A stretch of DNA of 50,494 nt from Flavobacteriales bacterium BRH_c54 (GTDB taxonomy: Bacteria > Bacteroidota > Bacteroidia > Flavobacteriales_E > Vicingaceae): the NCBI GenBank assembly GCA_000961845.1, contig LADZ01000053.1, forward strand, positions 1 to 50,494. Direction: 5' to 3'. Under the pieces are notes generated by a model. That model did not search any database, had not been told where the DNA came from, and was given only the letters and a program-made list of their open reading frames with translations. Positions 13,246 through 26,519 of the stretch are shown piece by piece (positions within the stretch are counted from its first letter, which is position 1; each line of letters starts with the position of its first letter). The position numbers were made by a program, and so were the translations under genes.

Positions 13246-13305
13246 CAAAGGTGAGCATGATTACTACGGAATGTGTTACATAACTTGTGGCATATGTTAC
13301 ACAAT
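13246..13305 (-). promoter_or_regulatory. Regulon promoter A (two palindromes plus -7 box)
   Basis: In gene direction: ATTGTGTAAC (13305-13296), GTTATGTAAC (13284-13275) exactly 21 bp on, then 21 bp to the -7 box CACCTTTG (13253-13246). The ATG of the type A ice-binding gene is 43 bp beyond. The proximal palindrome occupies the place of the usual -33 TTG. Upstream flank GTGTGAATT matches sites D and E (GCGTGAATT). Confidence 0.85.
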
Positions 13306-13333
13306 TCACACATTTCTATTATAAAATTTGTTC

Positions 13334-13376
13334 TTAACCCTCTCCTTAACCCCCCTCTCTCTTCATAAAGAGGGGG
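13334..13376. repeat. C-rich repeat with 8-bp hairpin
   Basis: TTAACCCTCTCCTTAACC precedes CCCCCTCT (13351-13358), which pairs perfectly with AGAGGGGG (13369-13376) across 10 nt. It resembles the C-rich ends of the ileS insertion in style but does not align closely. It sits between the OmpA-gene terminator and promoter A and is probably a dispersed non-coding repeat. Confidence 0.55.
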
Positions 13377-13408
13377 AAAAATTATCGCATGATAACTTTG
13401 GAGTGAGT

Positions 13409-13444
13409 AAAAAACCACTACCCTTTAAAAAAGAGTAGTGGTTT
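13409..13444 (-). terminator. Rho-independent terminator after the OmpA-family gene
   Basis: AAACCACTAC (13412-13421) pairs with GTAGTGGTTT (13435-13444), a 10-bp perfect stem extendable by CTTT/AAAG inside the loop. On the minus strand it ends in a run of T. It lies 25 bp past the stop at 13469 and separates the type B operon from the type A ice-binding gene. Confidence 0.85.
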
Positions 13445-13468
13445 AAAATCAACTAATCAAAAAAAAAA

Positions 13469-15433
13469 TTACTCTTTTAAAACAATAAATTCTGTACGTC
13501 TATTGTTTTGATGTTGTTTTTCAGAACATTTAGTAACATCTTCTCCCTCGCAAGGACAAGCGTTTACCAATTTAGATTCTCCATAACCTTTACTTGTAAT
13601 TCTACTCGGTTTAGATATTCTTGTTTTAATGTAATTTGCCGAAGCTTTTGCTCTGTTGTTAGATAGTTTCTGATTAAAATTTTCTGAACCTCTACAATCG
13701 GTATGCGATCCCAATTCAATTGTCATGGTTGGATTTTCATTCATCACTTTAACAATTTCATTCAAATCAGCAATAGCATCTGGTCGGATATTATATTTAT
13801 CGTAATCAAAATAAATGGTTTGCGGATTAAAGCCCAATACTTTTCCTAAATCGTCACCTTTTTTAGGTTTTTTAATTACCTTTTCGGTAACTACTTCAGC
13901 TACTTTTTCCTCTTCTTTAAGCAATACAACATCTGCTACTACGTTTTCTTCATCACCAAAAGTGTTGGTAGTATTATTACCATCTTTGTAGTTGTCTTTT
14001 TCTCCAGTTAACTTAAAGTTTTTATTGGCATCAACATCAAAACTAAAAACTCCATCGTTGTTAGTAGTAAATGAGTTTAACACATTGCCTTTATCATCAA
14101 GTAAGGTTACTAAAGCGGTAGCAATAGGGTTGCCATCTTTATCTTTAGTAATTCCAGTTATTTGTTTTTGCACATCTACCTCTTTGGTTTTCAACAAATC
14201 AAGATAAAAAATATTATCGCTTCCTTCACTTCTGTTAGAAGAAAAATAGCCTTTCTTCATGTTGTTATCTACAATTAAAGCATAATCATCAAATTTAGAA
14301 TTTAAAGGAGCTCCTGCATTAGTTACAGTTCCTACTTGATTACCTTGCATTTCACAAATAAAAATATCCAAGCCACCTAATCCGAAGCGACCATTAGAAG
14401 AGAAAAATAAAGTATTGCTTTTTTCTTCTAAAAATGGAAACATTTCATCGCCTTCTGTATTTATTTTATTCCCTAAATTTTTTGGTTTACCCCAAACTTT
14501 CCCTTCTCTGGTAACACTATAAATATCCGAACCACCGAAACCTCCTGGTATATCACTGGTAAAATACATGGTATTTCCATCTGCTGATAAGGAAGGATGT
14601 CCTACAGAATATTCAATATTATTAAGATGAAAAGGTTGTGGTTCTGACCATTTTTCATCAGCATATTCACTAAAATGAATTTCCAATTCTACCACTTTAT
14701 TTCCTTTTTCAACTTTGTAGTTATTTTTGGTAAATGCCATAAAAGAGCCATCTTTACTAAAACTTGCGGGCCCATCATGCATTTTCCCATTTAATCCTTT
14801 ATCGAACATTTTAGGTTCTTTTAGTTGGCTACTATCTATATCTGAAACATATAAATTATAAAATGGATTTCCTGTCCAGTTGTTATTTCTAACAATCATT
14901 TTAGGTTTAGATCTGCTAGAAGCAAAAACAATTTTGTCTTGATAATAAGCTGGAGCAAAATCTTCTCTGTCCGTATTAATATCTAATGTGGTTATCTTAT
15001 ATTTACCATCATCTTTTGAAAAGTTAGCCAACTCACCTTTGTTGGCAGAATAATCCTTTCCACGTAAATCACTTGGTTTTAACGCCACAAATTTATCCAT
15101 GGCAGTGTTTGAGGCTTCTTGTTTGCCATTTATTTTCAAAACCATTGCGTATTGATAATAATCTTCAGGCAATAGGTCTGTGTTTTTTTCAATTAAGATA
15201 GAGTAAACTCTTTCCGCATCAAGATTTTGTTCGAGATTACGGTGACTTTCAGCCAACCTACGATGTCCTTCAACTGTAAGGTCTTTTGTGTTTGAGTAAT
15301 AATCAATTGCTTTATCAAAGGAATATACAAAAAAGTGTTTATCGCCTTTTATTTCTCTGTTTGATTTATCTTCTGCAAAGGCATTAATGCCGAATCCAAG
15401 AAGTGCTATGACCAGAATGAATAGATTTTTCAT
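13469..15433 (-). CDS. OmpA family protein with TPR, WD40-like and carboxypeptidase-regulatory domains (PorE-like)
   Basis: The 654-residue envelope protein has, in order, a signal peptide (MKNLFILVIALLGFGINAFA), a TPR-like helical region (about 30-115), PD40/WD40-like propeller repeats (about 150-420; FSKDGSFMAFTKNN, LSADGNTMYFTSDIPGGFGG, LFFSSNGRFGLGGLDIF), a carboxypeptidase-regulatory-like domain (about 425-510; TKDKDGNPIATALVTL) and an OmpA C-terminal peptidoglycan-binding domain (about 530-654; IYFDYDKYNIRPDA, GSHTDCRGS, NRRTEFIVL). This is the architecture of PorE and of the OmpA partners encoded beside PorP/SprF genes. It probably anchors the SprF-type complex to peptidoglycan. It follows the SprF gene by 32 bp in the same operon and ends at a strong terminator. 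Confidence 0.9.
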   Translation of the reverse strand: MKNLFILVIALLGFGINAFAEDKSNREIKGDKHFFVYSFDKAIDYYSNTKDLTVEGHRRLAESHRNLEQNLDAERVYSILIEKNTDLLPEDYYQYAMVLKINGKQEASNTAMDKFVALKPSDLRGKDYSANKGELANFSKDDGKYKITTLDINTDREDFAPAYYQDKIVFASSRSKPKMIVRNNNWTGNPFYNLYVSDIDSSQLKEPKMFDKGLNGKMHDGPASFSKDGSFMAFTKNNYKVEKGNKVVELEIHFSEYADEKWSEPQPFHLNNIEYSVGHPSLSADGNTMYFTSDIPGGFGGSDIYSVTREGKVWGKPKNLGNKINTEGDEMFPFLEEKSNTLFFSSNGRFGLGGLDIFICEMQGNQVGTVTNAGAPLNSKFDDYALIVDNNMKKGYFSSNRSEGSDNIFYLDLLKTKEVDVQKQITGITKDKDGNPIATALVTLLDDKGNVLNSFTTNNDGVFSFDVDANKNFKLTGEKDNYKDGNNTTNTFGDEENVVADVVLLKEEEKVAEVVTEKVIKKPKKGDDLGKVLGFNPQTIYFDYDKYNIRPDAIADLNEIVKVMNENPTMTIELGSHTDCRGSENFNQKLSNNRAKASANYIKTRISKPSRITSKGYGESKLVNACPCEGEDVTKCSEKQHQNNRRTEFIVLKE

Positions 15434-15465
15434 GTTTTTATAGTTTATATTTTTGCTATTAAATG

Positions 15466-16404
15466 TTAAAAATGTCGTGGGGAATGAATTTGTTTTTTAC
15501 TGGCAAAGATGAAATCATATCGTAATACAATTTCATGGCTACCTTCATTGTATAAAAAAGTTTCTAACCCATACGACTTGTCAAATGAGTATCCCAAATA
15601 AAACTGATTGGTAAGTGCTAATCCGATTAAAGCACCATAAGCATCTCCTGTACGATACATTGCTCCAAGATGAAGTTTTTTAATCAATATAAAAGTGGCT
15701 GTAATATCGGCTTGTAAAGGTGCTGCTGCGGTTAGTTTAATAAGTGTTGTAGGTTTAAACCCTATGTTGTGAGAGATATCGAACATTGCTCCTGCAATAA
15801 AGAAATAATGTCTTTGCTGCTCTGCAACCAAAGTATTTCCGTTATCATTGGTTTCTGAATAACTATTTTGCATTAAGTTAGGAACAGAAACTCCGGCATA
15901 AAAACGCTCTCTAGAATAATAAGCACCAAAACCAATATTAGGTGTTATCTGATTCTCTAGATTGTTTTCAAAAACAGGATCATTTGGTTGGTCAATATTA
16001 AGTGTATTTAGCGTTGCTCTATTAATATCTGCTCCACCTGTTAAACCAAGAGCCAATTTTGAGTTTTGATTCAGCTTCATTCTGTAAGCAAAATGTGCAT
16101 TTACAGAGGTGTTGCTGCTCGGACCAATTTTATCATTCATCAACGATAGTCCAACACCAATATGCTCGTTTATAATTGGAGCGTGCATGGTGATAGTTTG
16201 CGTTCTTGGTGCTCCTTGAAAATCTACCCATTGTGAACGATGCAATGCCGTTACTGTTAGTGCATCTCTACTTCCGGCATAAGCTGGGTTTACTACCAAT
16301 GTATTGTACATATAATGTGTGTACATTGGCGTTTGTTGTGCATTTGTGGTTAAACTCCCTAAGGAGATAAGCAATGCAAATGTTATTTTTATAAGTGTCT
16401 TCAT
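15466..16404 (-). CDS. PorP/SprF family type IX secretion membrane protein
   Basis: The 312-residue protein has a signal peptide (MKTLIKITFALLISLGSLTT, cleavage before QQTP) and the family opening QQTPMYTHYMYNTLVVNPAY then AGSRD, with aromatic beta-strands to the end, as expected for an outer-membrane barrel. PorP/SprF proteins serve type IX secretion and are often dedicated to one type B (CHU_C) cargo encoded beside them. Here the gene lies directly after a type B ice-binding-like gene (37 bp) and before an OmpA partner, the classical trio. The C-terminus (LRYDFIFASKKQIHSPRHF) is slightly extended. Confidence 0.93.
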   Translation of the reverse strand: MKTLIKITFALLISLGSLTTNAQQTPMYTHYMYNTLVVNPAYAGSRDALTVTALHRSQWVDFQGAPRTQTITMHAPIINEHIGVGLSLMNDKIGPSSNTSVNAHFAYRMKLNQNSKLALGLTGGADINRATLNTLNIDQPNDPVFENNLENQITPNIGFGAYYSRERFYAGVSVPNLMQNSYSETNDNGNTLVAEQQRHYFFIAGAMFDISHNIGFKPTTLIKLTAAAPLQADITATFILIKKLHLGAMYRTGDAYGALIGLALTNQFYLGYSFDKSYGLETFLYNEGSHEIVLRYDFIFASKKQIHSPRHF

Positions 16405-16441
16405 GATTTATAGATTAACTTTGTGAGTGTTATAATTTAAA

Positions 16442-19186
16442 TTATCTGTTTAGATAAATGGTTCCTTTATAAATTGCTGATTCATCACCTAAATCAAGTA
16501 CATAGAAGTAAGTTCCTACAGGCAATTCATCTCCTCCAATTCTAATACCTGTTGAAGAGGTACCATCCCAAGTATTGGTATAAGGATTTGCTTCAAATAA
16601 TTTATCTCCCCAACGGTTAAAAACCATAAAAGAATTAGATGGGAATCTATCAATTCCTCTGATTACGAATAAATCATTTATGTCATCTCCATTCGGAGAA
16701 AATCCTTCAGGGATATTAAAATCATTATTAGGGTCATTTGGATCAATAGAATCACAATCATTTGTTACTTCAATAGTAAATGTTACGGGAGTGCCTTCAC
16801 AACCACCAAAACTTGGGGTTACTGTAATGGTTGCTAATTCTGTACTTGCTCCTGTATTAGTTGCAGTAAAAGCGTTTATGTTTCCACTACCACTTGCTGC
16901 TAATCCTATAGAAGTATTGTCGTTTGTCCAATTGTAAACAGCTCCAGGAGTATTTCCACTAAAGTTTATTGCTGCAGTTGTGTCGTTATTACACAAACTT
17001 TGACTAGCTACGGTATCAATAGTTGGAACTGGGGCTACAATTATTGTAAAACTAGTGCTAATTCCATTACATCCGTTTAGAGATGGTGTTACGGTAATTA
17101 ATGCGGTGTCTATAGTTGTACCATTATTAATAGCAGTAAATGAAGTAATGTTTCCATTTCCATTTGCTGCTAATCCTATAGTGGTATTGTTATTTGTCCA
17201 ATTAAAAGATGTTCCTACAATATTTCCATTAAAGTTTATTGGCGAGGTTGTTTCACCAGCACATAAACTTTGGTTGGGTATGGTATCAATTATTGGAACT
17301 GGATTTACTATTATTGTAAAACTAATGCTTGCACCAACACATCCATTTGCAGAAGGTGTTACGGTAATTAATGCGGTATCTATGGTTGTACCATTATTAG
17401 TAGCAGTAAAAGAAAGAATATCTCCATTTCCAGTTGCTGCTAACCCTATAGCGGTATTGTTGTTTGTCCAATTGTAGGTTGTTCCCAAAGGAGTTCCTGT
17501 AAAAATTATATTGGTTGTAGTATCATTATGGCAAACCATCTGATTACTTACACTATCAATTATAGGTGTTTCAACAACCTCTACTTGAAAATTTGCAGAA
17601 ACTGTTCCTGGTCCACAAGCACTACTACCCTGTACGGTAATGTTAAAAGTACCCGTTGTAGCGGTTGGACTAAAATCTACGGTAATACTATCGGTGTTAG
17701 CTCCAGAAATAATGGTTACTCCAAGAGGTAATGTCCATGAATAGCTAGTAGCATTGCTTATAGCAGATACATAGTAAACAATTCCTGTAGCACCCTGACA
17801 GACAGTATCGGGTCCCATTACAACTCCTGCAGCACCTGTAGTGCCTGAAGGGGTATTTACTTGGGCTGCGTAGGTGCTTAATGCCCCTACTGTTGTAAGA
17901 GCTCTTCCGTTAAGAATAACACCTGTAAACAAGTTAATTGCTCCTGCACATACAAAAGTTCCATTAAAAATAGAGAAGTTATTTATATCTACTGCACCAT
18001 CAATTTTCCAATACACATTTTGTGCTTGTGCTCCATTTAGTAATACTACGTTTGAAAATGTACTTGTTGCAAAAGCACCATTAATTTGGAAAATAAAAAC
18101 TGCATTGGGATTACCCTGTGCATCAAGATAAAGCGTATCGGTAAGTGACACTGCTCCGAGCATAAGGTAAGTATGTGGAGTAAGCACTAAATTATGACCA
18201 AAAATAGATGGCTCCATTAATTGAATATCGTAAGGTAAGGCGTTTAAATTATTGTAAACTACTAGTAAATCTGCCGCACACTGAGCGGTAGAACCATCAG
18301 GAATAGGGTGAATAGTTCCTGTAACTTTTAAAGGATCATAACCTAAAGCACTTCCTAAATTAGAACCTACATCGCCTATAACAAATGTGGCAAAATCATC
18401 CTGAACAGGACCATTTGAACTAAATATTGCATAACATTCTACTGAGTTTAGTACTGGTAAAGCAGGCCCAGTAAGTATAGGTCTTCCGCATCCTAAAGGA
18501 ATATAGATAGTAGTTTCATTAACAGATATAGCTGAGTTTATTGCAAAAGCTCGTCCTACTAATGAGTCATTTGCACCCATTAATATTGCTCCTTGAGTAA
18601 TAATAGTACCTTGTAAAGTTACTCCTACATCAACAGTAACAGCACCATCAACCATCCAAAACACATTACATGCTTGAGCTCCGTTTATTAATTTAACTTT
18701 AGAATTTGCAGATACATTTAATGCGCCATCTAATTGAAATATAAAAACTGCATTTGGGTTGTTTTGTGCATCTAAAATAAGATCTCCTGTAAACCAAATG
18801 GCTGCGTTTACAACGCTATGAACTCCAGAATTAAGAACAGTTCCACCTCCAAAAGGAGTTGCCATTACGTTCGTTGGTGTTAACCCTGCTAAATAAGCAT
18901 AGGCTGCATTTACATCAGTTGAGGCACTTGCAAAAGTAGTTCCTCCTTGGTAAAGAACACCATCTACATTTCCAAAACCTGAAATGGAAGCAGGTGCAGC
19001 ACCAATATCGCCAGTAACATGTGTTTTATAAAGTAAAGTGCTAGAGCTGGTTACTGCTCCTGCGGTAGATAAAATAGCAAAATCGGTTGCTGAGCCCAAA
19101 TTGGGGGGGGCTTGCCCTGAGCTTATTTTTGGAAAAGCCAAAAATGCAGCAAGCAATACGATTGTCAATAGTAAGTTGTTTTTCAT
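16442..19186 (-). CDS. Ice-binding-like adhesin: two DUF3494 domains, PKD/Ig-like repeats, T9SS type B sorting domain
   Basis: I chose the ATG at 19186 (914 residues) over one 13 codons upstream because it begins a clean signal peptide (MKNNLLLTIVLLAAFLAFPK). Two DUF3494 domains follow (about 25-235 and 240-440; LILDAQNNPNAVFIFQLDG, LINGAQACNVFWMVDGAVTV; LYLDAQGNPNAVFIFQING, LNGAQAQNVYWKIDGAVDIN). An Ig/PKD-like region contains three near-repeats of about 84 residues with the core YNWTNNNTAIGLAA-GNG. The end is a CHU_C/type B sorting domain (IPEGFSPNGDDINDLFVI, FNRWGDKLFE, GTYFYVLDLG). It heads an operon with SprF and OmpA genes, its probable export partners. Regulon promoter B lies 36 bp upstream. 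Confidence 0.92.
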   Translation of the reverse strand: MKNNLLLTIVLLAAFLAFPKISSGQAPPNLGSATDFAILSTAGAVTSSSTLLYKTHVTGDIGAAPASISGFGNVDGVLYQGGTTFASASTDVNAAYAYLAGLTPTNVMATPFGGGTVLNSGVHSVVNAAIWFTGDLILDAQNNPNAVFIFQLDGALNVSANSKVKLINGAQACNVFWMVDGAVTVDVGVTLQGTIITQGAILMGANDSLVGRAFAINSAISVNETTIYIPLGCGRPILTGPALPVLNSVECYAIFSSNGPVQDDFATFVIGDVGSNLGSALGYDPLKVTGTIHPIPDGSTAQCAADLLVVYNNLNALPYDIQLMEPSIFGHNLVLTPHTYLMLGAVSLTDTLYLDAQGNPNAVFIFQINGAFATSTFSNVVLLNGAQAQNVYWKIDGAVDINNFSIFNGTFVCAGAINLFTGVILNGRALTTVGALSTYAAQVNTPSGTTGAAGVVMGPDTVCQGATGIVYYVSAISNATSYSWTLPLGVTIISGANTDSITVDFSPTATTGTFNITVQGSSACGPGTVSANFQVEVVETPIIDSVSNQMVCHNDTTTNIIFTGTPLGTTYNWTNNNTAIGLAATGNGDILSFTATNNGTTIDTALITVTPSANGCVGASISFTIIVNPVPIIDTIPNQSLCAGETTSPINFNGNIVGTSFNWTNNNTTIGLAANGNGNITSFTAINNGTTIDTALITVTPSLNGCNGISTSFTIIVAPVPTIDTVASQSLCNNDTTAAINFSGNTPGAVYNWTNDNTSIGLAASGSGNINAFTATNTGASTELATITVTPSFGGCEGTPVTFTIEVTNDCDSIDPNDPNNDFNIPEGFSPNGDDINDLFVIRGIDRFPSNSFMVFNRWGDKLFEANPYTNTWDGTSSTGIRIGGDELPVGTYFYVLDLGDESAIYKGTIYLNR

Positions 19187-19222
19187 AATGTTGTATTTAA
19201 ATGTGAATTTGTTTTCACCTGG

Positions 19223-19282
19223 CAAAGGTGAGTTACATTTTAAGCTAATGAGTTACATAACTTTTTAAATAAGTTACATAAT
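19223..19282 (-). promoter_or_regulatory. Regulon promoter B
   Basis: In gene direction: ATTATGTAAC (19282-19273), GTTATGTAAC (19261-19252) 21 bp later, 21 bp, then CACCTTTG (19230-19223). It drives the type B ice-binding/SprF/OmpA operon; the ATG is 36 bp beyond the -7 box. Confidence 0.87.
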
Positions 19283-19300
19283 TCATTGATTTTTGCAGAA

Positions 19301-19331
19301 ATACACCTCTCCTTAATAAGGAAAAGTGTAT
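19301..19331 (-). terminator. Possible hairpin terminator after the YtxH/holin-like group
   Basis: ATACAC (19301-19306) pairs with GTGTAT (19326-19331), and TCCTT with AAGGA inside, giving an interrupted stem. The downstream T content on the minus strand is weak. It lies 35 bp past the last gene of that group and just before promoter B. Confidence 0.4.
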
Positions 19332-19365
19332 GTTATTTTAAGGTGGGTTCTATAAATTGATTTTT

Positions 19366-19746
19366 TTATGCTTTCTTTTCAAAGACAACACTGAGGATGT
19401 CCATAAACTTTGTTCTGATATCATCAGCATTTTTGGAAACCACACTTGTAACTCCCATTTGAAGAAAGCTACCTAAGATTTGTTTTAGGGGATTATTGGT
19501 TGACCCTACAGCTAATTTTTTTGAGAAATAGCCGGCAGCTAAACTTATGGAAGTGTTTAATAAATCTTCTTTAAAATCAGGAGCTGTAACCAACTCTTTA
19601 AAAGTACTTCTTATAAAGTTGATTGGTTTTATACTTTCGTAAGTTAAATTAAATTGTTCTTTTAATAAAATTGCTTCTTGAGTTTGTTTGTTTTCAAGCA
19701 ACAAAATAGCTGCGTTCAGTTCGGTAATATTTGATATTGTTCCCAT
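19366..19746 (-). CDS. Hypothetical protein in YtxH/holin-like stress cluster
   Basis: The 126-residue protein is not a family I can name. It is largely helical, with no signal peptide; a Gly/Ala-containing stretch (LLNTSISLAAGYFSKKLAVG) and FLQMGVTSVVSKNA could be weakly amphipathic or membrane-associated. It begins 1 bp after the holin-like gene ends, so the two are almost certainly cotranscribed and translationally coupled. Similar small proteins accompany YtxH and holin-like genes in other Bacteroidota, from memory of neighbourhoods, which suggests a shared envelope-stress role. It ends the local transcription group. Confidence 0.7.
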   Translation of the reverse strand: MGTISNITELNAAILLLENKQTQEAILLKEQFNLTYESIKPINFIRSTFKELVTAPDFKEDLLNTSISLAAGYFSKKLAVGSTNNPLKQILGSFLQMGVTSVVSKNADDIRTKFMDILSVVFEKKA

Positions 19747-19747
19747 T

Positions 19748-20095
19748 TTATTTTTTATTAAAAATTTCTGAGATGATTGAATTACTTACTTTACGTTTTA
19801 TAAAATTGTGCAAGAAATAAAACAAAACACCTCCTAACACAATATAAAAAGTAGCAACACACAAAAAGCCTAAATAAGGTTTCCCTAATAAATCGCCTAA
19901 CCATAGAGCTAATCCAATACTTGCAAAAACCAAAAACATAGAAAGAACAATAACAACAGCTCCACGAGATACAAAAGTTGAAACAACCTCTGCAGTTTTG
20001 CTTATTGTTTTGAGTTTATACAACTCAAAACTTGTTTTTCCATAATCTTCAATTTTTTCAAACAAAGGTTCTATATGATTAAATGTATTTCCCAT
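19748..20095 (-). CDS. Phage-holin-superfamily-like small membrane protein (stress cluster)
   Basis: The 115-residue protein has an N-terminal helix (HIEPLFEKIEDYGKTSFELY) and two adjacent membrane segments (about 46-68 and 74-97; IVLSMFLVFASIGLALWLG, FLCVATFYIVLGGVLFYFLH), then a basic tail. This matches the 'phage holin family' or Holin-X-like proteins that are chromosomal in Bacteroidota and unrelated to lysis. There are no phage genes around it. It sits between the YtxH gene and a coupled hypothetical gene, a common arrangement with general-stress proteins. Confidence 0.78.
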   Translation of the reverse strand: MGNTFNHIEPLFEKIEDYGKTSFELYKLKTISKTAEVVSTFVSRGAVVIVLSMFLVFASIGLALWLGDLLGKPYLGFLCVATFYIVLGGVLFYFLHNFIKRKVSNSIISEIFNKK

Positions 20096-20132
20096 TTTTT
20101 ATAGTATGCTAAAAAGATGTTTTTGAAATTAA

Positions 20133-20402
20133 TTATTTAACGCCATCATTGCTAAATGCTTCGGCTTTACCTTTTACTTTTTCGTAAGCTTCTGTAGCTT
20201 CTTCTTTTCCTTCTTGAAATTTGTCAGCAACATCATCCATTAAACTTTCAAATTTCTTTTTTAAGTCGTTAACGGTATCAGAGCTTTTTTTCGCAATTTT
20301 TTTTCTTGTTACTGATCCTTTGTCTGGTGCAAATAATACACCTAAGATTGCACCAGCGGCTGCGCCTGCTAATACACCTACTAAAATTTTTCCTGTGTTC
20401 AT
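20133..20402 (-). CDS. YtxH domain-containing protein
   Basis: The 89-residue protein has the YtxH signature: a Gly/Ala-rich hydrophobic segment ([20 protein letters not shown]) followed by [17 protein letters not shown] and an amphipathic helix ([19 protein letters not shown]). YtxH proteins are small membrane-associated proteins linked to general stress responses in Bacillus. Length is typical. It stands 34 bp downstream of a small lmo0937-like gene and 37 bp upstream of the holin-like gene, all on the same strand. Confidence 0.88.
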
Positions 20403-20436
20403 AATATTGAGTTTTAAATGGTTTGTAATTTTTTTT

Positions 20437-20583
20437 CTATTTACCTCTAATTACTCTTAGTATTACTGCAATAAGTGCTATTACTAAGAGTATATGGATA
20501 ATTCCTCCTGCATTATATCCTAAGAAACCTATTGCCCAGAGGATTACTAAAATAATGGCAGCAGTATAAAGTATATTTCCCAT
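20437..20583 (-). CDS. lmo0937-like small membrane protein (DUF5670-type)
   Basis: This 48-codon gene starts at ATG 20583 and ends TAG at 20437. The product begins [20 protein letters not shown], continues [20 protein letters not shown] and ends ILRVIRGK: two membrane helices around a GYNAGG turn. This is the pattern of lmo0937 family membrane proteins, which are frequent beside YtxH and CsbD stress genes. Function unknown. It lies just after a strong hairpin and before ytxH. Confidence 0.85.
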
Positions 20584-20635
20584 GATTTTTATTTTTTAAT
20601 TTGTGAGTATTAATTTGTTTTAAATAAAGTTACAA

Positions 20636-20655
20636 GGTGCTTATTGCTAAGCACC
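20636..20655 (-). terminator. Hairpin downstream of the outer-membrane barrel gene
   Basis: GGTGCTTA (20636-20643) and TAAGCACC (20648-20655) form a perfect 8-bp stem with a 4-nt loop. On the minus strand it is followed by TTGTAACTTTATTT, a poor but T-rich tail. It probably separates the promoter C transcript from the lmo0937/ytxH genes or attenuates read-through into them. Confidence 0.7.
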
Positions 20656-20709
20656 TCATAACTTCGCCTTACTAAAAACTAAATTAAATAAGAGCTGTTT
20701 AACTACTTT

Positions 20710-21339
20710 TTAAAACTTGAAACCAACTGTGGCTTGTAACCAGGTGTTTTTGTAACGAGGAGTGCTTGATGTTCCATCGCCTTTGTTATCTTGTAAATCC
20801 CATGCAGCTCTTGCTCCAATTACAAAATGATTAATGTTAATGTCTAAACCAAAAGAAGCTCCCAATGTGTTTTTACGAATATTTTCATTTTCAAATTCAT
20901 CTTCTTGCTCAGTGTTAAGAAATGACGATTCAAATTTATCTTTTCTAGACATTAAATAAGAGAATTGTGGACCTGCAACTATGGTTAAAAATGAAGAAGG
21001 TTTTAAAGCTAAATAGATGGGAATATCTATATAGTTGGTTGTTCTGGTAAATTCATATTCTGAACCTAAAACACTACCTGTTGCTTTAAATCCTTTTTGA
21101 GAAAATAATACCTCTGGTTGAATTCCTATGTATGTTCCAATTGGAATAGCAAGGAATGCTCCTGCTGCTAATCCTAATTTAGGATCTGCATCAAATTCTT
21201 CTCCTTCAGTATCATAAACATTGGCATAGTTCATCCCTATTTTTGCCCCAATGTGTATTTTTTCTCTATCATCGTCTTGTGCATATCCATTAACGGTAAT
21301 AAACGTTAATGCGATTGCCATTATTCCTAATTTTTTCAT
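20710..21339 (-). CDS. Porin-family outer membrane beta-barrel protein
   Basis: The 209-residue protein has a signal peptide (MKKLGIMAIALTFITVNGYA before QDDD) and alternating aromatic strands typical of the small OMP beta-barrel (PorT-like, OMP_b-brl_2) family: HIGAKIGMNYANVYD, LGLAAGAFLAIPIG, IGIQPEVLFSQKGF, YIDIPIYLALKP, FLTIVAGPQFSYLMS and a terminal Phe (ATVGFKF) expected for BAM recognition. The role is unknown. It follows the lipoprotein gene at 21379 by 39 bp and is likely cotranscribed from promoter C. Confidence 0.88.
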   Translation of the reverse strand: MKKLGIMAIALTFITVNGYAQDDDREKIHIGAKIGMNYANVYDTEGEEFDADPKLGLAAGAFLAIPIGTYIGIQPEVLFSQKGFKATGSVLGSEYEFTRTTNYIDIPIYLALKPSSFLTIVAGPQFSYLMSRKDKFESSFLNTEQEDEFENENIRKNTLGASFGLDININHFVIGARAAWDLQDNKGDGTSSTPRYKNTWLQATVGFKF

Positions 21340-21378
21340 ATCTATTATTTTTAATACTAATTAATACTAATTGGTTTG

Positions 21379-21822
21379 TTATTTTTTGGTGTTGTTAACG
21401 GTTAAGTCAGTAAACGCTTTCCCTAATTCGTCCATATCATGGCTAAATTCAGTTTTAAACGCTTCCCATTTTTGTTTTCCATCCGCTTGGTAATCGTCCA
21501 TTTTCTTTCCCATATCGCTGTTTTTTTGTTCTAACTCAGCAATTTGTTTTTTGTATTCGGCTTTAACCTCTTTTTTTTCATTTTCTATTCTTAAATTGAA
21601 GTCCGCAATACTTTTGTTGTTTGCTGCAATTTTATCAGCTGTTTCCATTCTGTAATTTTCAATATCAAATAGATAGGCATCATTTGCTTCTTTAAGTTCT
21701 TTGTCTGCATCTTTTACAGCTTGTTCGGCATTTTCTACTTTTTCGGCTGAAGAATTACAACTTGTAAATACCGTTCCTGTAATAAGTGCAACTACTGTAA
21801 TTGCTAAAATTGTTTTGTTCAT
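21379..21822 (-). CDS. Coiled-coil lipoprotein
   Basis: The 147-residue protein has a lipoprotein signal (MNKTILAITVVALITGTVFT followed by SC; Cys21-22 region) and an almost fully helical, charged body (AEKVENAEQAVKDADKELKE; KKEVKAEYKKQIAELEQKNS; MGKKMDDYQADGKQKWEAFK). It is probably a periplasm-facing coiled coil anchored in a membrane, reminiscent of Lpp-like or stress-linked spacers, but I do not recognise a named family. It is the first gene after regulon promoter C, which places it in the proposed stress regulon together with the downstream barrel gene. Confidence 0.82.
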   Translation of the reverse strand: MNKTILAITVVALITGTVFTSCNSSAEKVENAEQAVKDADKELKEANDAYLFDIENYRMETADKIAANNKSIADFNLRIENEKKEVKAEYKKQIAELEQKNSDMGKKMDDYQADGKQKWEAFKTEFSHDMDELGKAFTDLTVNNTKK

Positions 21823-21860
21823 GGTTTCATTTTTTTAATTGTGAAGTAATTTTCACTTGG

Positions 21861-21920
21861 CAAAGGTGAGATGCTTTAAGAGGTATTTTGTTATGTAATT
21901 TTATAAATTTGTTACATAAT
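21861..21920 (-). promoter_or_regulatory. Regulon promoter C
   Basis: In gene direction: ATTATGTAAC (21920-21911), ATTACATAAC (21899-21890) 21 bp later, 21 bp, then CACCTTTG (21868-21861). The ATG of the coiled-coil lipoprotein gene is 38 bp beyond. The proximal copy has the central CA/TG inverted, consistent with a palindromic site. Confidence 0.85.
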
Positions 21921-21940
21921 TAACTTGTTTTCAGTATTAT

Positions 21941-22507
21941 TTATAAGTGGAAAGCCAGTCCCACTTTAGACACACCAGTAGATAAATCTAAAAATGCTCC
22001 TAATGTATTATTAAAATGATATTCTGCACCTATATGTAAATCTAAGTATAAAGCACTTCCTCTTCGGTAATAATCTTTATCTCCATAATAATCTCTATCC
22101 CAACTAGATTTAACAATTGCAAAACCAAGTGATCCTGCAAGATAAAAATCCCACTTATCATTTGCTCCTAATAAACTATCGAAATAATAAGATCCTTTTA
22201 CACCAACTGGAATAACTGTTTCTCTATAAGTATAAAATCTTTCGGGGTTATTATTGTTTCCCCAATTGTATCTTTTAGAATAAGAATAAAAACTAACAAA
22301 AGGAGCTAAAGTAAAATTGTTAGCTACATCAATTTCATAGTTTAGTTGAAAAACAGGTAAGGTATGACCTACATAACTATAGTATCCAGAATAGCCACCT
22401 ATTCCCAATCCTAAATTTAGTGTGTTTCCATATTTTTCTTGTGCTGAAGCATTAAAATGCGTCAAACAAAAAGTGAATAACAGTTGTAAGATTACTTTTT
22501 TACTCAT
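21941..22507 (-). CDS. Outer membrane beta-barrel protein
   Basis: I chose the ATG at 22507 (188 residues) because it begins a signal peptide (MSKKVILQLLFTFCLTHFNA then SAQEKYG). A start at 22606 would add 33 polar residues, most of them encoded by an inserted repeat. The body is aromatic and Gly-rich with barrel-like strands (LNLGLGIGGYSGYYSYVGHT, FTLAPFVSFYSYSKRYNWG, WDFYLAGSLGFAIVKSSW, ALYLDLHIGAEYHFN). It ends STGVSKVGLAFHL. The family is otherwise unknown. It has its own regulon-type promoter (D), and promoter C begins 20 bp past its stop. Confidence 0.8.
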   Translation of the reverse strand: MSKKVILQLLFTFCLTHFNASAQEKYGNTLNLGLGIGGYSGYYSYVGHTLPVFQLNYEIDVANNFTLAPFVSFYSYSKRYNWGNNNNPERFYTYRETVIPVGVKGSYYFDSLLGANDKWDFYLAGSLGFAIVKSSWDRDYYGDKDYYRRGSALYLDLHIGAEYHFNNTLGAFLDLSTGVSKVGLAFHL

Positions 22508-22560
22508 TTTTTTAAATTTTAAGTTTTTGTATGACTCATTTGTCTTTATTTTTTTTGTAA

Positions 22561-22604
22561 GTATTCGTGAGTTCGCTGTGCTCAGTTCGTGAAACTTCGT
22601 ATTC
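22561..22604. repeat. Small repeat in a 5' leader, flanked by 6-bp direct repeats
   Basis: A 32-bp block containing GAGTTCGCTGTGCTCAGTTC lies between direct repeats GTATTC (22561-22566 and 22599-22604). It lies in the leader between promoter D and the barrel gene and lengthens that leader to about 135 nt against 30-40 nt for the other regulon members. Similar TTCGCTGTGCTCAG sequences recur in Flavobacteria from memory. The 6-bp repeats look like a target-site duplication. Confidence 0.55.
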
Positions 22605-22648
22605 ATTTTAATTAGTTTTTAGCTTATGATTGATTTATCATAACATAA

Positions 22649-22708
22649 CAAAGGTGATTACTATTGGTCCGTAAGTTGTTACACAACTATTCATAAATGT
22701 TGTAAAAT
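22649..22708 (-). promoter_or_regulatory. Regulon promoter D
   Basis: In gene direction: ATTTTACAAC (22708-22699, the most diverged copy), GTTGTGTAAC (22687-22678) 21 bp later, 21 bp, then CACCTTTG (22656-22649). It precedes the outer membrane barrel gene at 21941-22507. The flank GCGTGAATT matches site E. Confidence 0.8.
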
Positions 22709-22734
22709 TCACGCTTTTTATAAGGAATAGTTTT

Positions 22735-23823
22735 TTATTTGATAAGCTTACTTACCTGTTTTTGAATCTTTTTAACCAATGGTATTTCTTTTTTTCTAAC
22801 CACTATCTCACCTATTAAATATCCATAAGGTTTTAATGATGCTACATTATCGAACACTATTTTTAAAATAGCGATGGTGGGTATGGCAATAAAAATACCT
22901 GGAATACCCCAAAGCAGTTCTGCAATAATTAATGCAATAATGGTAGCAAATGGATTTATTTTTACTTGCGAACCAACAATAAGAGGCTCTAATACCCAAC
23001 CTTGTATTAATTGTACTATGCCATAAGTTGCAGCAATTCCTCCTAACATTGGTAAACTTGCTCCATTAACTGCCGCAACCAACAAGGTAAGTGTTGTGCC
23101 TATAATGTTTCCAACAAAGGGAATAACTTCTAATAACCCACATAGAATGGCAAAAAATAGTGCATTTTTTACACCCAAAATACTAAATCCAATAAAATAC
23201 ATTACCCATAATACACTAATCATTTTAGCGAGTCCAAGTAAGTATTGTTGAGAAACTCTTGTGCTGTGAAAAATTACTTTTTCTACTTCTTTTTTTTTGG
23301 TTGAAGGATAGAGCTTAATTAAGAAGTTTTTTAAATGAGACCTATAATAAATGATACAAAAAACGTAAACCAAAATAAGAATAAATTGGGTTAATATACT
23401 AGTTATAGAGCCTGCTATCAATTTTATAAAATCAGCTACAAAAGGTTGCTGTTCTTTTAATGCTGATACTTGGTTTTCTGTGGAGATGCCAAAATGAAAC
23501 AATATGTATTGTTGGGCTCTATAAAATTGATAGACTGTTTTTTCCTTTATAAGGGCGAAATCTTTTACTAATTCATTAAGCTGCCAAGCGAGTAAAAAAC
23601 CAATAGCTGTTACCACTATCAACATCGTTATTAGACAAATAAGGGCTGCTAACCCTTTGGGTATTTTTTTACTTTCTAACCATTTACTAAAAGGCAAAAA
23701 AAGTGTTGCCAAAACACCTCCTATTAACAATGGAATTAAGAATCCTTGAGCGTAATATAATCCTGCAAAAACAAGAAATAACACTACTATTTTTTTTATG
23801 ATGGAAATGGAAGTTATGGTCAT
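22735..23823 (-). CDS. AI-2E family transporter (PerM/YdiK-like permease)
   Basis: The 362-residue protein has about seven to eight membrane segments (for example IVVLFLVFAGLYYAQGFLIP, LICLITMLIVVTAIGFLLAW) and family marks in the C-terminal half: ILCGLLEVIPFVGNIIG, VQLIQGWVLEPLIVGSQVKI and PTIAILKIVFDNV. The superfamily covers putative quorum-signal exporters and Na+/H+ antiporters, so the substrate is open. It has no regulon-type promoter of its own. A bidirectional terminator separates it from the upstream ice-binding lipoprotein gene. Confidence 0.9.
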   Translation of the reverse strand: MTITSISIIKKIVVLFLVFAGLYYAQGFLIPLLIGGVLATLFLPFSKWLESKKIPKGLAALICLITMLIVVTAIGFLLAWQLNELVKDFALIKEKTVYQFYRAQQYILFHFGISTENQVSALKEQQPFVADFIKLIAGSITSILTQFILILVYVFCIIYYRSHLKNFLIKLYPSTKKKEVEKVIFHSTRVSQQYLLGLAKMISVLWVMYFIGFSILGVKNALFFAILCGLLEVIPFVGNIIGTTLTLLVAAVNGASLPMLGGIAATYGIVQLIQGWVLEPLIVGSQVKINPFATIIALIIAELLWGIPGIFIAIPTIAILKIVFDNVASLKPYGYLIGEIVVRKKEIPLVKKIQKQVSKLIK

Positions 23824-23855
23824 CTTTTAGATTTTAAATAACACTAGTTGGATAC

Positions 23856-23890
23856 AAAAAAAGCATTGCTTGATTAGCAATGCTTTTTTG
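23856..23890. terminator. Strong bidirectional-type terminator
   Basis: AGCATTGCT (23862-23870) and AGCAATGCT (23876-23884) form a perfect 9-bp stem with 5-nt loop, with an A-run before and a T-run after. It ends the transcript of the ice-binding lipoprotein gene (stop at 23908) on the minus strand. Confidence 0.9.
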
Positions 23891-23907
23891 TTTATTTAAT
23901 ACAATGT

Positions 23908-24714
23908 TTAAGGTTTTGTAAGGGTACTTCCTTCAAGCGTTACTGCTGCAATTCGGGCTAATAACCTACCATTTATTGCTACTCCTGTATTTACAGAAAT
24001 AGATTGGTCGGCAAGAATATTACCTTTAAATACTGCTGTTGATTTTAGAGTAGCTGAAGTTCCTACTTGCCAAAATATATTTTCAGCTAATGCGCCTCCT
24101 TGGAGATACACTTTTCTATTGGTTTCCACATTAAGTGTAGATGCTATTTGAATAATAAAAACTGCATTACTATTACCTTTTGCATCAAAAGTAAGGTTAC
24201 CTGTAGAAATTTCTAATGAACCGCTTGATTTATAAAGCCCTGGTGTAAGTGTTAGTCCACCGATATTTCCTGCAAGAAGAACCATATCAACAGATGTACG
24301 ACCAGCGGCATCATTATAAGCAGTAGTTAAATGTCCTTTTGCAGCTGTTAATCCAACAGCATCGGGCACTGAACCTGCTGGACCAGAAGCATCTGTAGTA
24401 TAAACAACACCCACTATTTCATTTGCTCCAAACCCTGTAATGTTACTTCCTGCTGCCGGACTTAATCCAACATTTCCTGTAATAGCTGATGTAGGAACAT
24501 TTGATATTAAAGAACCTGCAAGTATAGCAAATCCTCCTGCTGATTGAAGATCAACGGTTGCTTGAACTTCTGTTTGCAATGGAATTACTGTAGGATTAAC
24601 ATACCCTCCGCCTCCACCTGTACTAGGTGCTGGTGAATCTTTGTCTTTTGAACATCCTGCAATTAAAACAATTGTTGCTATTGCGAAAGTTGTAATTAAA
24701 TTTTTAGTTTTCAT
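23908..24714 (-). CDS. Ice-binding-like lipoprotein, single DUF3494 domain
   Basis: The 268-residue protein has a lipoprotein signal (MKTKNLITTFAIATIVLIAG then Cys21), a short linker (SKDKDSPAPSTGGGGGYVNP) and one full DUF3494 domain (about 50-265): LQSAGGFAILAGSLISNVPT, GNVGLSPAAGSNITGFG, LTFDAKGNSNAVFIIQIAST, YLQGGALAENIFWQVGTSAT, FKGNILADQSISVNTGVAIN, GRLLARIAAVTLEGSTL. This resembles canonical bacterial ice-binding proteins more closely than the two T9SS-sorted paralogs. The lipid anchor would hold it at a cell membrane. It is the last gene of the group headed by promoter E and ends at a strong terminator. Confidence 0.93.
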   Translation of the reverse strand: MKTKNLITTFAIATIVLIAGCSKDKDSPAPSTGGGGGYVNPTVIPLQTEVQATVDLQSAGGFAILAGSLISNVPTSAITGNVGLSPAAGSNITGFGANEIVGVVYTTDASGPAGSVPDAVGLTAAKGHLTTAYNDAAGRTSVDMVLLAGNIGGLTLTPGLYKSSGSLEISTGNLTFDAKGNSNAVFIIQIASTLNVETNRKVYLQGGALAENIFWQVGTSATLKSTAVFKGNILADQSISVNTGVAINGRLLARIAAVTLEGSTLTKP

Positions 24715-24767
24715 TTTATTTAGTTTTTAGCTATCCGTAAGGCCACGGATAAGGTGAGTTTTTATTT

Positions 24768-24920
24768 TTATAAAAGGATAATTAGTAATAAAACAATGAT
24801 GATAATGACTCCAAGCGAAAGATAAACTCCACCACTATTTTGTTTTAATTGTTTTTCTATCGATTTAATTTCTTCACGTAATTCTTTTTTTTCAGCATGT
24901 TTAAGTTCCAATTTGTTCAT
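24768..24920 (-). CDS. Small membrane protein, truncated paralog of the 25121 gene
   Basis: This 50-codon gene (ATG 24920, TAA at 24768) encodes MNKLELKHAEKKELREEIKS, then IEKQLKQNSGGVYLSLGVII and IIVLLLIILL: a charged helix followed by one C-terminal membrane segment. It is strongly similar to the C-terminal half of the 99-residue protein encoded at 25121-25420 (KQNNGGVYLSVGAIIIIILL), but lacks that protein's signal peptide. Nucleotide similarity extends to just before the ATG, suggesting a 5'-truncated duplicate that may still be translated. It starts 10 bp after the CsbD-like gene. Confidence 0.7.
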   Translation of the reverse strand: MNKLELKHAEKKELREEIKSIEKQLKQNSGGVYLSLGVIIIIVLLLIILL

Positions 24921-24930
24921 TTCATCTTAT

Positions 24931-25110
24931 TTATCTTTCTTTTAATAATAATCGAAACTTTTCTTTTATTTTATTAAGTTTCATTTGACATCTACCCAAA
25001 AAATCATCTTTACTACCGTTTACAAACACAATATCACTATCAGTTATTACAGAAGCTTTTTCTAATTTTTCATTATTAGTAGCTTTATCATTAGGTGCTT
25101 TGTTTTTCAT
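24931..25110 (-). CDS. CsbD-like small stress protein
   Basis: This 59-codon gene (ATG 25108-25110, TAA at 24931) encodes MKNKAPNDKATNNEKLEKAS followed by VITDSDIVFVNGSKDDFLGR and CQMKLNKIKEKFRLLLKER. The core ITDSDIVFVNGSKDDFLGR resembles the (L)TDDDL-x-x-x-EGKEDELLGR region of CsbD general-stress proteins, but the usual N-terminal W..GKVKEK segment is not obvious. It lies in the promoter E group among other envelope-stress genes, which supports the reading. It could also be a degenerate CsbD copy or an unrelated small protein. Confidence 0.6.
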   Translation of the reverse strand: MKNKAPNDKATNNEKLEKASVITDSDIVFVNGSKDDFLGRCQMKLNKIKEKFRLLLKER

Positions 25111-25120
25111 TGGGATTAGT

Positions 25121-25420
25121 TTATAAAAGAATAATCAACAATAAAATAATGATAATGATGGCTCCAACAGAAAGATAAACTCCTCCATTATTTTGTTTCA
25201 ATTGTTTTTCAATTGATCTAACTTCTTTACGAAGTACCTTTTTTTCGCTATGTTTAAGGTCAGATTTGTCCATTTCATTAATCTCATCTAATCTATTTAA
25301 TAGTACTGTAGATTCAGCTGAGATTTCAACAGGTGGTTTAACAGGTGTGTTGTCTGCTTTTAAAGTTGGAGTTATTGACAATAATCCTATTGTTAATAAT
25401 GAGTAGGTTAATTTTTTCAT
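25121..25420 (-). CDS. Small secreted/tail-anchored membrane protein
   Basis: The 99-residue protein has a signal peptide (MKKLTYSLLTIGLLSITPTL, cleavage near LKADN), a charged helical middle (LKHSEKKVLRKEVRSIEKQL) and a strongly hydrophobic C-terminus (GGVYLSVGAIIIIILLLIIL). Function unknown. It begins 49 bp after the Lys/Glu-rich gene from promoter E and has no promoter box of its own that I can see, so cotranscription is likely. A truncated paralog lies two genes downstream. Confidence 0.78.
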   Translation of the reverse strand: MKKLTYSLLTIGLLSITPTLKADNTPVKPPVEISAESTVLLNRLDEINEMDKSDLKHSEKKVLRKEVRSIEKQLKQNNGGVYLSVGAIIIIILLLIILL

Positions 25421-25469
25421 GTTAATTCGTTTTTAGTTTTTATAATAATTTGACGTAAGGGTATTTTGG

Positions 25470-25883
25470 TTAATCGTTATCTTTTTTTGGATCGTCTTCT
25501 CTTTGTTTAACTTTTTCTTTCTGCTTTGCGTTTTCTTTCTTTTTAGCTTTTTTAACGGCAGCTTCTTTTTTTGCTACTTTTTTATCCGCCTTATCTTTTT
25601 GTTCTTCTTTCTTACTTACTTTTTCTTCTGCTTTTTCTACCGCTTCTTCTTTATTCTCTAAATTAGTTTCAGCTTTTTCTAGCTGTCCGGCTTTTTTGTT
25701 TGCATTTTTTTCTGCTTTCTCTAAGCCTGATGCGTTATCTTTTTTCTTGTCTAAGTCTTTTTGTTCTTCCTTAATTTCTTTCTCCGTTCCTTCTAGCACT
25801 GTTTTTTCTTGAGCAAGCAAGGTAGTAGGAAGTATAAACAATCCTAAGGCTGTAAATAGAACTAATTTTGTAATGGTTTTCAT
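25470..25883 (-). CDS. Secreted Lys/Glu/Ala-rich coiled-coil protein
   Basis: The 137-residue protein has a signal peptide (MKTITKLVLFTALGLFILPT, cleavage after LLAQ) and a low-complexity, highly charged helical body (KEIKEEQKDLDKKKDNASGL, AEEKVSKKEEQKDKADKKVA, KEAAVKKAKKKENAKQKEKV). It looks like a periplasmic, probably heat-stable or desiccation-type coiled coil. No named family can be assigned, and low complexity makes homology searches unreliable. It is the first gene after regulon promoter E. Confidence 0.75.
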   Translation of the reverse strand: MKTITKLVLFTALGLFILPTTLLAQEKTVLEGTEKEIKEEQKDLDKKKDNASGLEKAEKNANKKAGQLEKAETNLENKEEAVEKAEEKVSKKEEQKDKADKKVAKKEAAVKKAKKKENAKQKEKVKQREDDPKKDND

Positions 25884-25929
25884 AATGATAAATTTGGTTT
25901 TTAGATATAAAGGATTTGTTCCTTACATG

Positions 25930-25989
25930 CAAAGTTGGGCTGTTTTAAAACAGGATGTGTTACATAACTTAAGAGATAAGTTACATAAT
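25930..25989 (-). promoter_or_regulatory. Regulon promoter E
   Basis: In gene direction: ATTATGTAAC (25989-25980), GTTATGTAAC (25968-25959) 21 bp later, 21 bp, then CAACTTTG (25937-25930), a variant of the CACCTTTG box. It precedes the Lys/Glu-rich gene by 46 bp and probably reads through to the ice-binding lipoprotein gene. The flank GCGTGAATT is as in site D. Confidence 0.83.
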
Positions 25990-26084: not shown

Positions 26085-26519
26085 CTATATCTTGTCCATG
26101 TACCAGTTCAACTGGCTTTCTATTTTTTTAAACTTAAAGATATTGGTAATGATACTTTGCAGACGAAGAAAAGCAGTTTCACTTTTTACTACATAGTCAA
26201 AAGCTTTGTGATGCATACAATTTACAGCAACATTTATATCATCTTGCGAGGATAGCATTACTACAGGAATGTCTTTATTAAATTCTTTTATTTCATCCAG
26301 TACATCTATTCCATTCATGGCATCTAAATCAATCCCATTAAGGTGATAATCTAAAATTACAACATCTGGATTTTTAGATATATTCTCCAGACAAAGTTCA
26401 CCTGTTGCGAATGTTTCTATTTCAAAGTCAGCATTTTGAAGAAACTCAATTTCCAATGATTTTAAAAATACAGCATCATCATCAACAAGGAAAAGTTTTA
26501 TTTTTTTTTCATTTTTCAT
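26085..26519 (-). CDS. Stand-alone receiver-domain response regulator
   Basis: The 144-residue protein is a single REC domain: acidic pocket LVDDD (11-15), phosphoacceptor Asp57 (VVILDYHLNG), switch Ser in VVMLSSQDD and the conserved Lys in YVVKSE. No DNA-binding output domain follows; the tail is FKFKKIESQLNWYMDKI. It may be a phosphorelay shuttle or act by protein contact. It overlaps the 3' end of the hybrid kinase gene by 11 bp, so it is translationally coupled to it. The nearest downstream feature is regulon promoter E, 95 bp away. Confidence 0.92.
   Translation of the reverse strand: MKNEKKIKLFLVDDDAVFLKSLEIEFLQNADFEIETFATGELCLENISKNPDVVILDYHLNGIDLDAMNGIDVLDEIKEFNKDIPVVMLSSQDDINVAVNCMHHKAFDYVVKSETAFLRLQSIITNIFKFKKIESQLNWYMDKI

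Follow-up and report, generated by a model that had tools for sequence, protein, structure and literature searches.

The 50,494-nucleotide stretch of Flavobacteriales bacterium BRH_c54 analyzed here (contig LADZ01000053.1, positions 1 to 50,494; below, the window) carries five 60-bp promoter elements of identical internal layout, and we consider it highly probable that they are the activator sites of an AraC-type regulator encoded in the same window (28517-29101), which would be controlled by a kinase and would serve a general or envelope-stress regulon. This reading builds on the sites and their statistics, on their association with the regulator family, on a conserved gene order, and on a gene fusion, all of which are observed, whereas binding of the regulator to the sites is predicted from them. 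The original prediction, made from the window alone, described the five sites and drew no link from them to the regulator and kinase genes, which lie approximately 0.5 to 3.1 kb upstream of the first site. The sites are as follows (bits refer to the position weight matrix [PWM] described below; the targets, the genes that each site heads, are predicted).

Regulatory site 1, 25930-25989, minus strand: distal repeat 25980-25989, proximal repeat 25959-25968, −7 box 25930-25937 (CAACTTTG); 61.5 bits; target, the 137-aa coiled-coil protein and the genes after it.
Regulatory site 2, 22649-22708, minus strand: distal repeat 22699-22708, proximal repeat 22678-22687, −7 box 22649-22656; 45.0 bits; target, the beta-barrel-like protein 21941-22606 (alternative start possibly 22507).
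Regulatory site 3, 21861-21920, minus strand: distal repeat 21911-21920, proximal repeat 21890-21899, −7 box 21861-21868; 38.4 bits; target, the lipoprotein 21379-21822, followed on the same strand by barrel, YtxH, holin-like, and 126-aa genes.
Regulatory site 4, 19223-19282, minus strand: distal repeat 19273-19282, proximal repeat 19252-19261, −7 box 19223-19230; 54.5 bits; target, the genes of the T9SS type B ice-binding protein, PorP/SprF, and the OmpA-family protein.
Regulatory site 5, 13246-13305, minus strand: distal repeat 13296-13305, proximal repeat 13275-13284, −7 box 13246-13253; 63.2 bits; target, the T9SS type A ice-binding protein.

Read in gene direction, every site has first the distal repeat, then the proximal repeat at an offset of 21 bp, and finally the −7 box, with a span of 60 bp; positions and internal spacing are thus as originally reported. 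The −7 box is CACCTTTG in four of the sites and CAACTTTG in site 1. Over a wider set of sites, the consensus is TGTGAATnATGTAAC for the distal and rTTATGTAACAc for the proximal repeat, 21 bp apart and followed by a −7 box of the cAccTTTG type. The repeats had been taken for palindromes, which we dropped as the main description, since in 70 sites the second core base is variable and the distal copy carries a conserved, asymmetric TGTGA extension; the units are better described as asymmetric direct repeats. The distance of 21 bp to the −7 box, said to be fixed, is indeed constant in the window, but among 280 sites it is one base shorter in 41 and one base longer in 2.

The five-site pattern is genuine and far above chance. 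With the two boxes written as 18 fixed bases and up to three mismatches allowed, the window has 4 matches compared to 0.20 expected (standard deviation [SD], 0.49), and none of 100 shuffles reaches 4; the fifth site (22649) has four mismatches to the two boxes and hence falls outside this set. When the −7 box was added, again with up to three mismatches, the organism's own 2.9-Mb genome gave 4 matches, all of them within the cluster, and the control read backward gave 0. A PWM whose training set was 70 sites in the regulator loci of other genomes, with zero sequence from the window and TTT at the box required, scores the five sites at 38.4 to 63.2 bits and every other position of the window below 8 bits, and in the reversed control 0 of 3.52 million positions reach 6 bits. 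Likewise, a profile built from 40 of 189 sites finds the five sites in the own genome at E values of 2e-14 to 8e-9, the next match having an E value of 0.02 (150 of 4,545 first-look candidates were scored). Lone boxes do not exceed the number expected by chance (32 matches compared to 27.9; SD, 5.5), and therefore it is the pairing and phasing that carry the signal. In favor of an origin of the repeats by chance or recent duplication, AT-rich sequence does make single boxes common, but shuffles and reversed controls contain the paired layout rarely or not at all, and it is kept in distant genomes while the spacers differ. Chance or recent duplication is therefore practically negligible as an explanation, in agreement with the earlier view that the sites are not a simple duplication.

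A Pfam scan covered 39 proteins of the window (which has 53 ORFs of at least 80 aa, the remainder mostly overlapping the scanned ones); the clear transcription factor among them is the AraC-type protein at 28517-29101, which is co-oriented with the sites and adjoins a kinase and a receiver gene.

28517-29101, minus strand: AraC-type (HTH_18) regulator of 194 aa, MVSxRC subtype, with a ferredoxin-like N terminus; the predicted reader of the sites.
26509-28545, minus strand: soluble hybrid histidine kinase (PAS-HisKA-HATPase-REC), with an HPt match below the cut-off; its ORF overlaps the regulator gene.
26085-26519, minus strand: stand-alone receiver-domain protein; its ORF overlaps the kinase gene.

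The match of the regulator to HTH_18 (PF12833; E value, 7e-17; 61.9 bits; cut-off, 33.6) identifies an AraC-type double helix-turn-helix. The regulator ORF overlaps that of the kinase and the kinase ORF that of the receiver, after which the first site begins at 25989; regulator, kinase, and receiver genes apparently form one operon. A DksA/TraR zinc-finger protein is encoded at 4375-4749, outside the cluster.

This arrangement recurs in other genomes. In the best 80 loci from a scan of named genomes, whose regulators are 69 to 84% identical, the two-box motif, used without the PWM, has 170 matches in 66 loci compared to 10 in the reversed control. With up to two mismatches, a spacing of 21 bp gives 92 matches, and each other spacing from 15 to 31 bp gives 0 to 2. 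At a threshold of at least 20 bits, the PWM finds 228 sites in 74 of the 80 loci, 219 of them on the strand of the regulator, a result that is partly in-sample, the training sites coming from the same loci. When the first 29 relative loci were searched more generally, for repeats of any sequence at a 21-bp offset upstream of a TTTG, mostly the same sites came back, together with some control matches. Where an ORF was called, the distance from box to ATG has a median of 40 nucleotides (nt) over 280 sites. In 51 of the 80 loci, the regulator gene itself is preceded by a site, which in 45 of them lies between −67 and −112, counted from the start of the match. The kinase gene is immediately downstream of the regulator gene in 68 of the 73 loci with enough sequence, and in 71 of these 73 a receiver outside the kinase is found within 5.5 kb. 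Furthermore, a check of site-headed ORFs revealed two in which regulator and kinase are one protein: a fusion with a hybrid histidine kinase in L105:1741-4995 (1,085 aa, read by eye) and one in L111:778-3369 (864 aa; Pfam HTH_18, PAS, HisKA, HATPase, and REC). The loci with the system are labeled as Flavobacteriaceae, Sphingobacteriaceae, Chitinophagaceae, Saprospiraceae, Cytophagales, Prolixibacteraceae, and Paludibacter; environmental Flavobacterium species with both regulator and sites include F. fluvii (L086), F. rhamnosiphilum (L066), and F. aquariorum (L070).

Pattern and regulator also occur together across 396 genomes of the class, in each of which up to eight regulator candidates were scored. 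Genomes with a regulator E value below 1e-85 contain the strict pattern in 16 of 24 cases; it occurs in 8 of 31 at 1e-85 to 1e-70, in 4 of 63 at 1e-70 to 1e-55, in 4 of 69 at 1e-55 to 1e-40, and in 7 of 209 without a regulator at 1e-40; the control read backward gave 0 in all 396. With the cut set at 1e-70, beyond which 15 of 341 genomes are positive, the association has a Fisher p value of 1e-13, uncorrected for kinship. At the level of the family (46 genomes, the same ones that the order-level search covers), the S-type regulator, that is, the one with the MVSxRC motif, is present in 6 of 8 pattern-positive genomes compared to 10 of 46 overall (p = 5e-4).

Several results weigh against the assignment of the sites to this regulator. 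Six of the 80 loci with a close regulator have zero sites at 20 bits, the strict pattern is missing from 8 of the 24 genomes with a regulator E value below 1e-85, and an autoregulatory site before the regulator gene of the window was not found (best score, −33; a −7-like box around 29160 stands without repeats). The seven pattern-positive genomes without a regulator match and, in addition, G010 were searched again with full scoring; this revealed weaker regulator homologues in G092 and G185, but G010, G011, G159, G194, G234, and G276 have sites and zero regulator homologue at an E value of 1e-8. G234 carries as many as 13 sites. In G234 contig C62 (L151 to L153) and G276 contig C24 (L155), many regulon sites and typical regulon genes were seen by eye; either the regulator gene is missing from these two assemblies or their sites have another reader. 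These six genomes would suit a different DNA-binding protein, for example a LytTR response regulator, as the reader of the motif, with the AraC gene a mere passenger. LytTR response regulators recognize 10-bp direct repeats with spacers of about 11 bp, and the spacing alone would also fit them. However, no candidate with a LytTR domain is present among the 39 scanned window proteins, and the geometry of repeats and box recurs at heavy-metal loci, where the evident common element is a paralogous AraC regulator. A different reader, with the AraC gene as a passenger, is therefore very improbable, although a second reader besides the AraC-type protein is possible.

The paralogues at these heavy-metal loci have the motif MVCxRC, are 44 to 55% identical to the window regulator, and share its two-domain architecture. 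In 12 of 14 paralogue loci (L044, L045, and L047 to L058), HMA, P-type ATPase, or RND-type genes adjoin, as judged by reading; such genes were confirmed by Pfam in the nine paralogue loci scanned, and in the short contigs L054 and L055 no metal-transport gene is visible. In the paralogue promoters, the motif is a variant that approximates AAATCTTGTAAC / AATAGTGTAAC; the 21-bp spacing is kept, and the 5′ part of the half-site (TCTTGTAAC / TAGTGTAAC) departs from that of the S-type. In 9 of 10 promoters tested, TTTG or TTTA follows 55 nt from the core start, a distance equal to that in the S-type sites. With the S-type PWM, 5 of 11 heavy-metal promoters reach 20 bits, but the null set contained the true promoters, and this comparison was replaced by a leave-one-out test of ten promoters (without L045, a near-copy of L044, and without L054, L055, and L056), in which 9 of the 10 scored higher than each of 300 shuffles. 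On the other side of the balance, the L058 promoter was matched by 1 of 300 shuffles, L057 is without a box, several of the ten promoters are closely related, and two of the ten served as seeds of the alignment. Since the paralogue loci share little else with the ice-binding clusters, the geometry appears to belong to the regulator, which is our strongest argument. The CxxC paralogues with their variant operators likely represent a second, heavy-metal-linked regulon family; a published description of them was not found among the open-access papers that the searches listed, as far as titles and abstract openings tell.

As for the mechanism, two regulator subunits would occupy the two asymmetric half-sites 21 bp, or two helix turns, apart, and the proximal subunit would contact RNA polymerase at a promoter with a sub-optimal −7 box (cAccTTTG). 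F. johnsoniae promoters are reported to have TAnnTTTG at −12 to −5 with a nearly invariant T−12 (PMC6847099), and TAnnTTTG is the sigma-A consensus (PMC9723704, PMC6847099). With the box placed at this published position, the two cores would share one face of the helix, the distal one at about −63 to −55 and the proximal one at about −42 to −34. The box of the sites is nAnnTTTG-like, near the sigma-A consensus and not distinct from it, TTT having been required beforehand in the 70 training sites. At −12, these sites have C in 56% and T in 27%; compared to the near-invariant T of F. johnsoniae (PMC6847099), the C-rich position fits activator-dependent promoters. It also speaks against the reverse action, in which the regulator would be a repressor whose proximal site blocks the promoter. 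A site at about −42 to −34, if the published box position applies, could hinder the polymerase, but the fixed phasing of the repeats to the box suggests dependence on an activator, and we regard repression as quite improbable. Activation would be governed by the PAS hybrid kinase, which most likely sets the activity of the regulator, since the two are co-encoded and, in two relatives, fused. The output would be a local general or envelope-stress regulon, to which every ice-binding gene detected in the own genome would belong.

The genes of the cluster behind the sites are the following.

25470-25883, minus strand: coiled-coil protein with a signal-like N terminus, first gene behind site 1; box to ATG, 46 nt.
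23908-24714, minus strand: ice-binding (DUF3494) lipoprotein, the putative distal gene behind site 1; PF11999 E value, 6e-61.
22735-23823, minus strand: AI-2E family transporter, on the same strand and possibly read from site 1.
21379-21822, minus strand: lipoprotein, sll1863 family stress response protein; NF052504, 47 bits (cut-off, 35).
20710-21339, minus strand: outer-membrane beta-barrel protein; PF13568 E value, 3.5e-23.
20133-20402, minus strand: YtxH-like protein; PF12732 E value, 1.3e-17.
16442-19186, minus strand: ice-binding protein with two PF11999 domains and a CHU_C (T9SS type B) tail.
15466-16404, minus strand: PorP/SprF-family protein; PF11751 E value, 1.3e-81.
13469-15433, minus strand: OmpA-family protein (PD40, OmpA).
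11586-13202, minus strand: ice-binding protein with two PF11999 domains and a Por_Secre_tail (T9SS type A).

As the original prediction had it, the sites head the two T9SS ice-binding units and the coiled-coil and barrel genes, and the ice-binding lipoprotein is the putative distal gene of site 1. Between 24714 and 25121, the short ORF 24931-25110 matches CsbD weakly (13 bits; cut-off, 40) and looks by eye like a partial copy of the protein encoded at 25121-25420.

Over 150 first genes behind sites in the orthologous loci, the families are Ice_binding (30), CsbD (12), receiver (8), OmpA (7), and DUF5670 (5), followed by the rarer GH130 (3), YtxH (3), ferritin/Dps (2), BON (2), and MlaE (2). 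This census took 150 of 156 proteins, cut those longer than 450 aa, and excluded 51 regulator-headed sites, duplicates, sites where no ORF was called, and starts separated from the box by more than 140 nt. A site precedes 28 of 34 ice-binding ORFs compared to 172 of 907 ORFs of at least 100 aa overall (p = 4e-16). In the cluster of the window, the companions of the ice-binding genes are the sll1863-family stress lipoprotein, YtxH, outer-membrane barrel, PorP/SprF, and OmpA-family proteins. A regulon specific for cold or ice would account for the rank of ice-binding proteins as the commonest first-gene family (30 of 150) and for the fact that all five ice-binding domains found in the own genome, in three genes, sit in the cluster. 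However, these promoters are also followed by CsbD, DUF5670, YtxH, ferritin/Dps, BON, and receiver genes, and some orthologous loci have record titles that name groundwater, lake, or bog samples; specificity for cold or ice is therefore unlikely. With CsbD, receiver, OmpA, DUF5670, YtxH, and Dps beside Ice_binding, the target set, judged from its gene families, would be one of general or envelope stress, in which cold induction is possible. Of the cold/envelope-stress regulon originally proposed, the regulon is thus strongly supported, and the label "cold" gives way to general or envelope stress.

An AlphaFold2 model of the regulator (20-sequence alignment; mean pLDDT, 86.5) has an N-terminal strand-helix-strand-helix-strand domain followed by the AraC DNA-binding domain. 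In VIA-align comparisons, the C terminus matches AraT (Z score, 13.8), MarA (12.5), SoxS (11.9), and AraC (11.1), and Foldseek also matches it to AraC-family domains. The N terminus is matched to the metallochaperones Atx1, CopZ, GolB, and HAH1 (Z scores, 7.0 to 7.6) and by Foldseek to metallochaperones at E values of 0.05 to 0.15. This likeness to HMA domains is weak, a point against our reading: the ACT part of prephenate dehydratase reaches a Z score of 8.1 and other ferredoxin-like folds reach about 7; judged from the model, the N terminus appears ferredoxin-like and is possibly of the HMA type. Pfam gave no HMA match in the window regulator and one in 5 of 9 CxxC paralogues, all below the cut-off (E values, 0.005 to 0.2). 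The CxxC metal-binding motif is absent from the window regulator, which has MVSxRC where the paralogues have MVCxRC. In a tree of 62 of the 102 regulator rows, the S-type forms a single clade (support, 100/96) of 50 of the 62, which is compatible with one Cys/Ser change, probably in the direction of serine. The S-type regulator probably shares an ancestor with the heavy-metal-linked AraC regulators that keep CxxC.

Two observations concern other parts of the window. A class I (isoleucyl-type) tRNA synthetase at 4770-8645 contains an in-frame DUF559/MTES_1575 nuclease-like domain (aa 668 to 769), which, amid the synthetase blocks, is possibly an inserted element, and an Asp/Glu racemase family protein (PF01177) is split across the adjacent ORFs 47225-47593 and 47608-47922.

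The DNA-binding family and the concept of an activator regulon are already known. For the regulon, the operator, the architecture of the regulator, and the kinase fusion, no description was found in the titles and abstract openings of the open-access papers that the searches listed, which is in line with the original prediction, whose author knew of no described regulon with such a signature. The Bacteroidota are not known to have RpoS or SigB. It is conceivable, though we would put it at somewhat less than an even chance, that we are dealing with a general-stress regulon of many Bacteroidota, a counterpart of sigma-factor-based general stress responses, in which a kinase-coupled AraC activator arose from a metal sensor by the loss of one metal-binding cysteine and ice-binding surface proteins are a major output. 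The analysis offers a precise operator for a putative stress regulon that recurs across the Bacteroidota, whose stress control is little described in the literature searched, hints at how metal-linked regulators and a kinase-linked stress activator may be connected in evolution, and places DUF3494 ice-binding proteins in a regulatory context.

Activators at promoter-proximal direct repeats are exemplified by AraC at araI1-I2 and by MarA/SoxS at class II promoters. The system described here resembles AraC/XylS activators in its C-terminal DNA-binding domain with two helix-turn-helix motifs and in its direct half-sites 21 bp apart, which would reach the −33 region if the box position published for F. 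johnsoniae applies; it differs in the small, ferredoxin-like N terminus of the window regulator (in place of a sugar-binding one), in the coupling to a hybrid kinase, and in the Bacteroidota −7 box. With the CxxC paralogues it has in common the two-domain architecture, the repeat spacing, and the distance to the box, but these keep CxxC, mostly adjoin heavy-metal transport genes, and have a different 5′ part of the half-site. LytTR regulators such as YpdB of Escherichia coli also use 10-bp repeats with a spacer of about 11 bp, unlike here, where the 39 scanned proteins include no LytTR protein. Finally, the target classes (CsbD, YtxH, and Dps-like proteins) are similar to those of the general stress regulons of RpoS, SigB, and EcfG; in place of an alternative-sigma promoter, however, the sites described here combine a sigma-A-type Bacteroidota −7 box with a predicted activator site.

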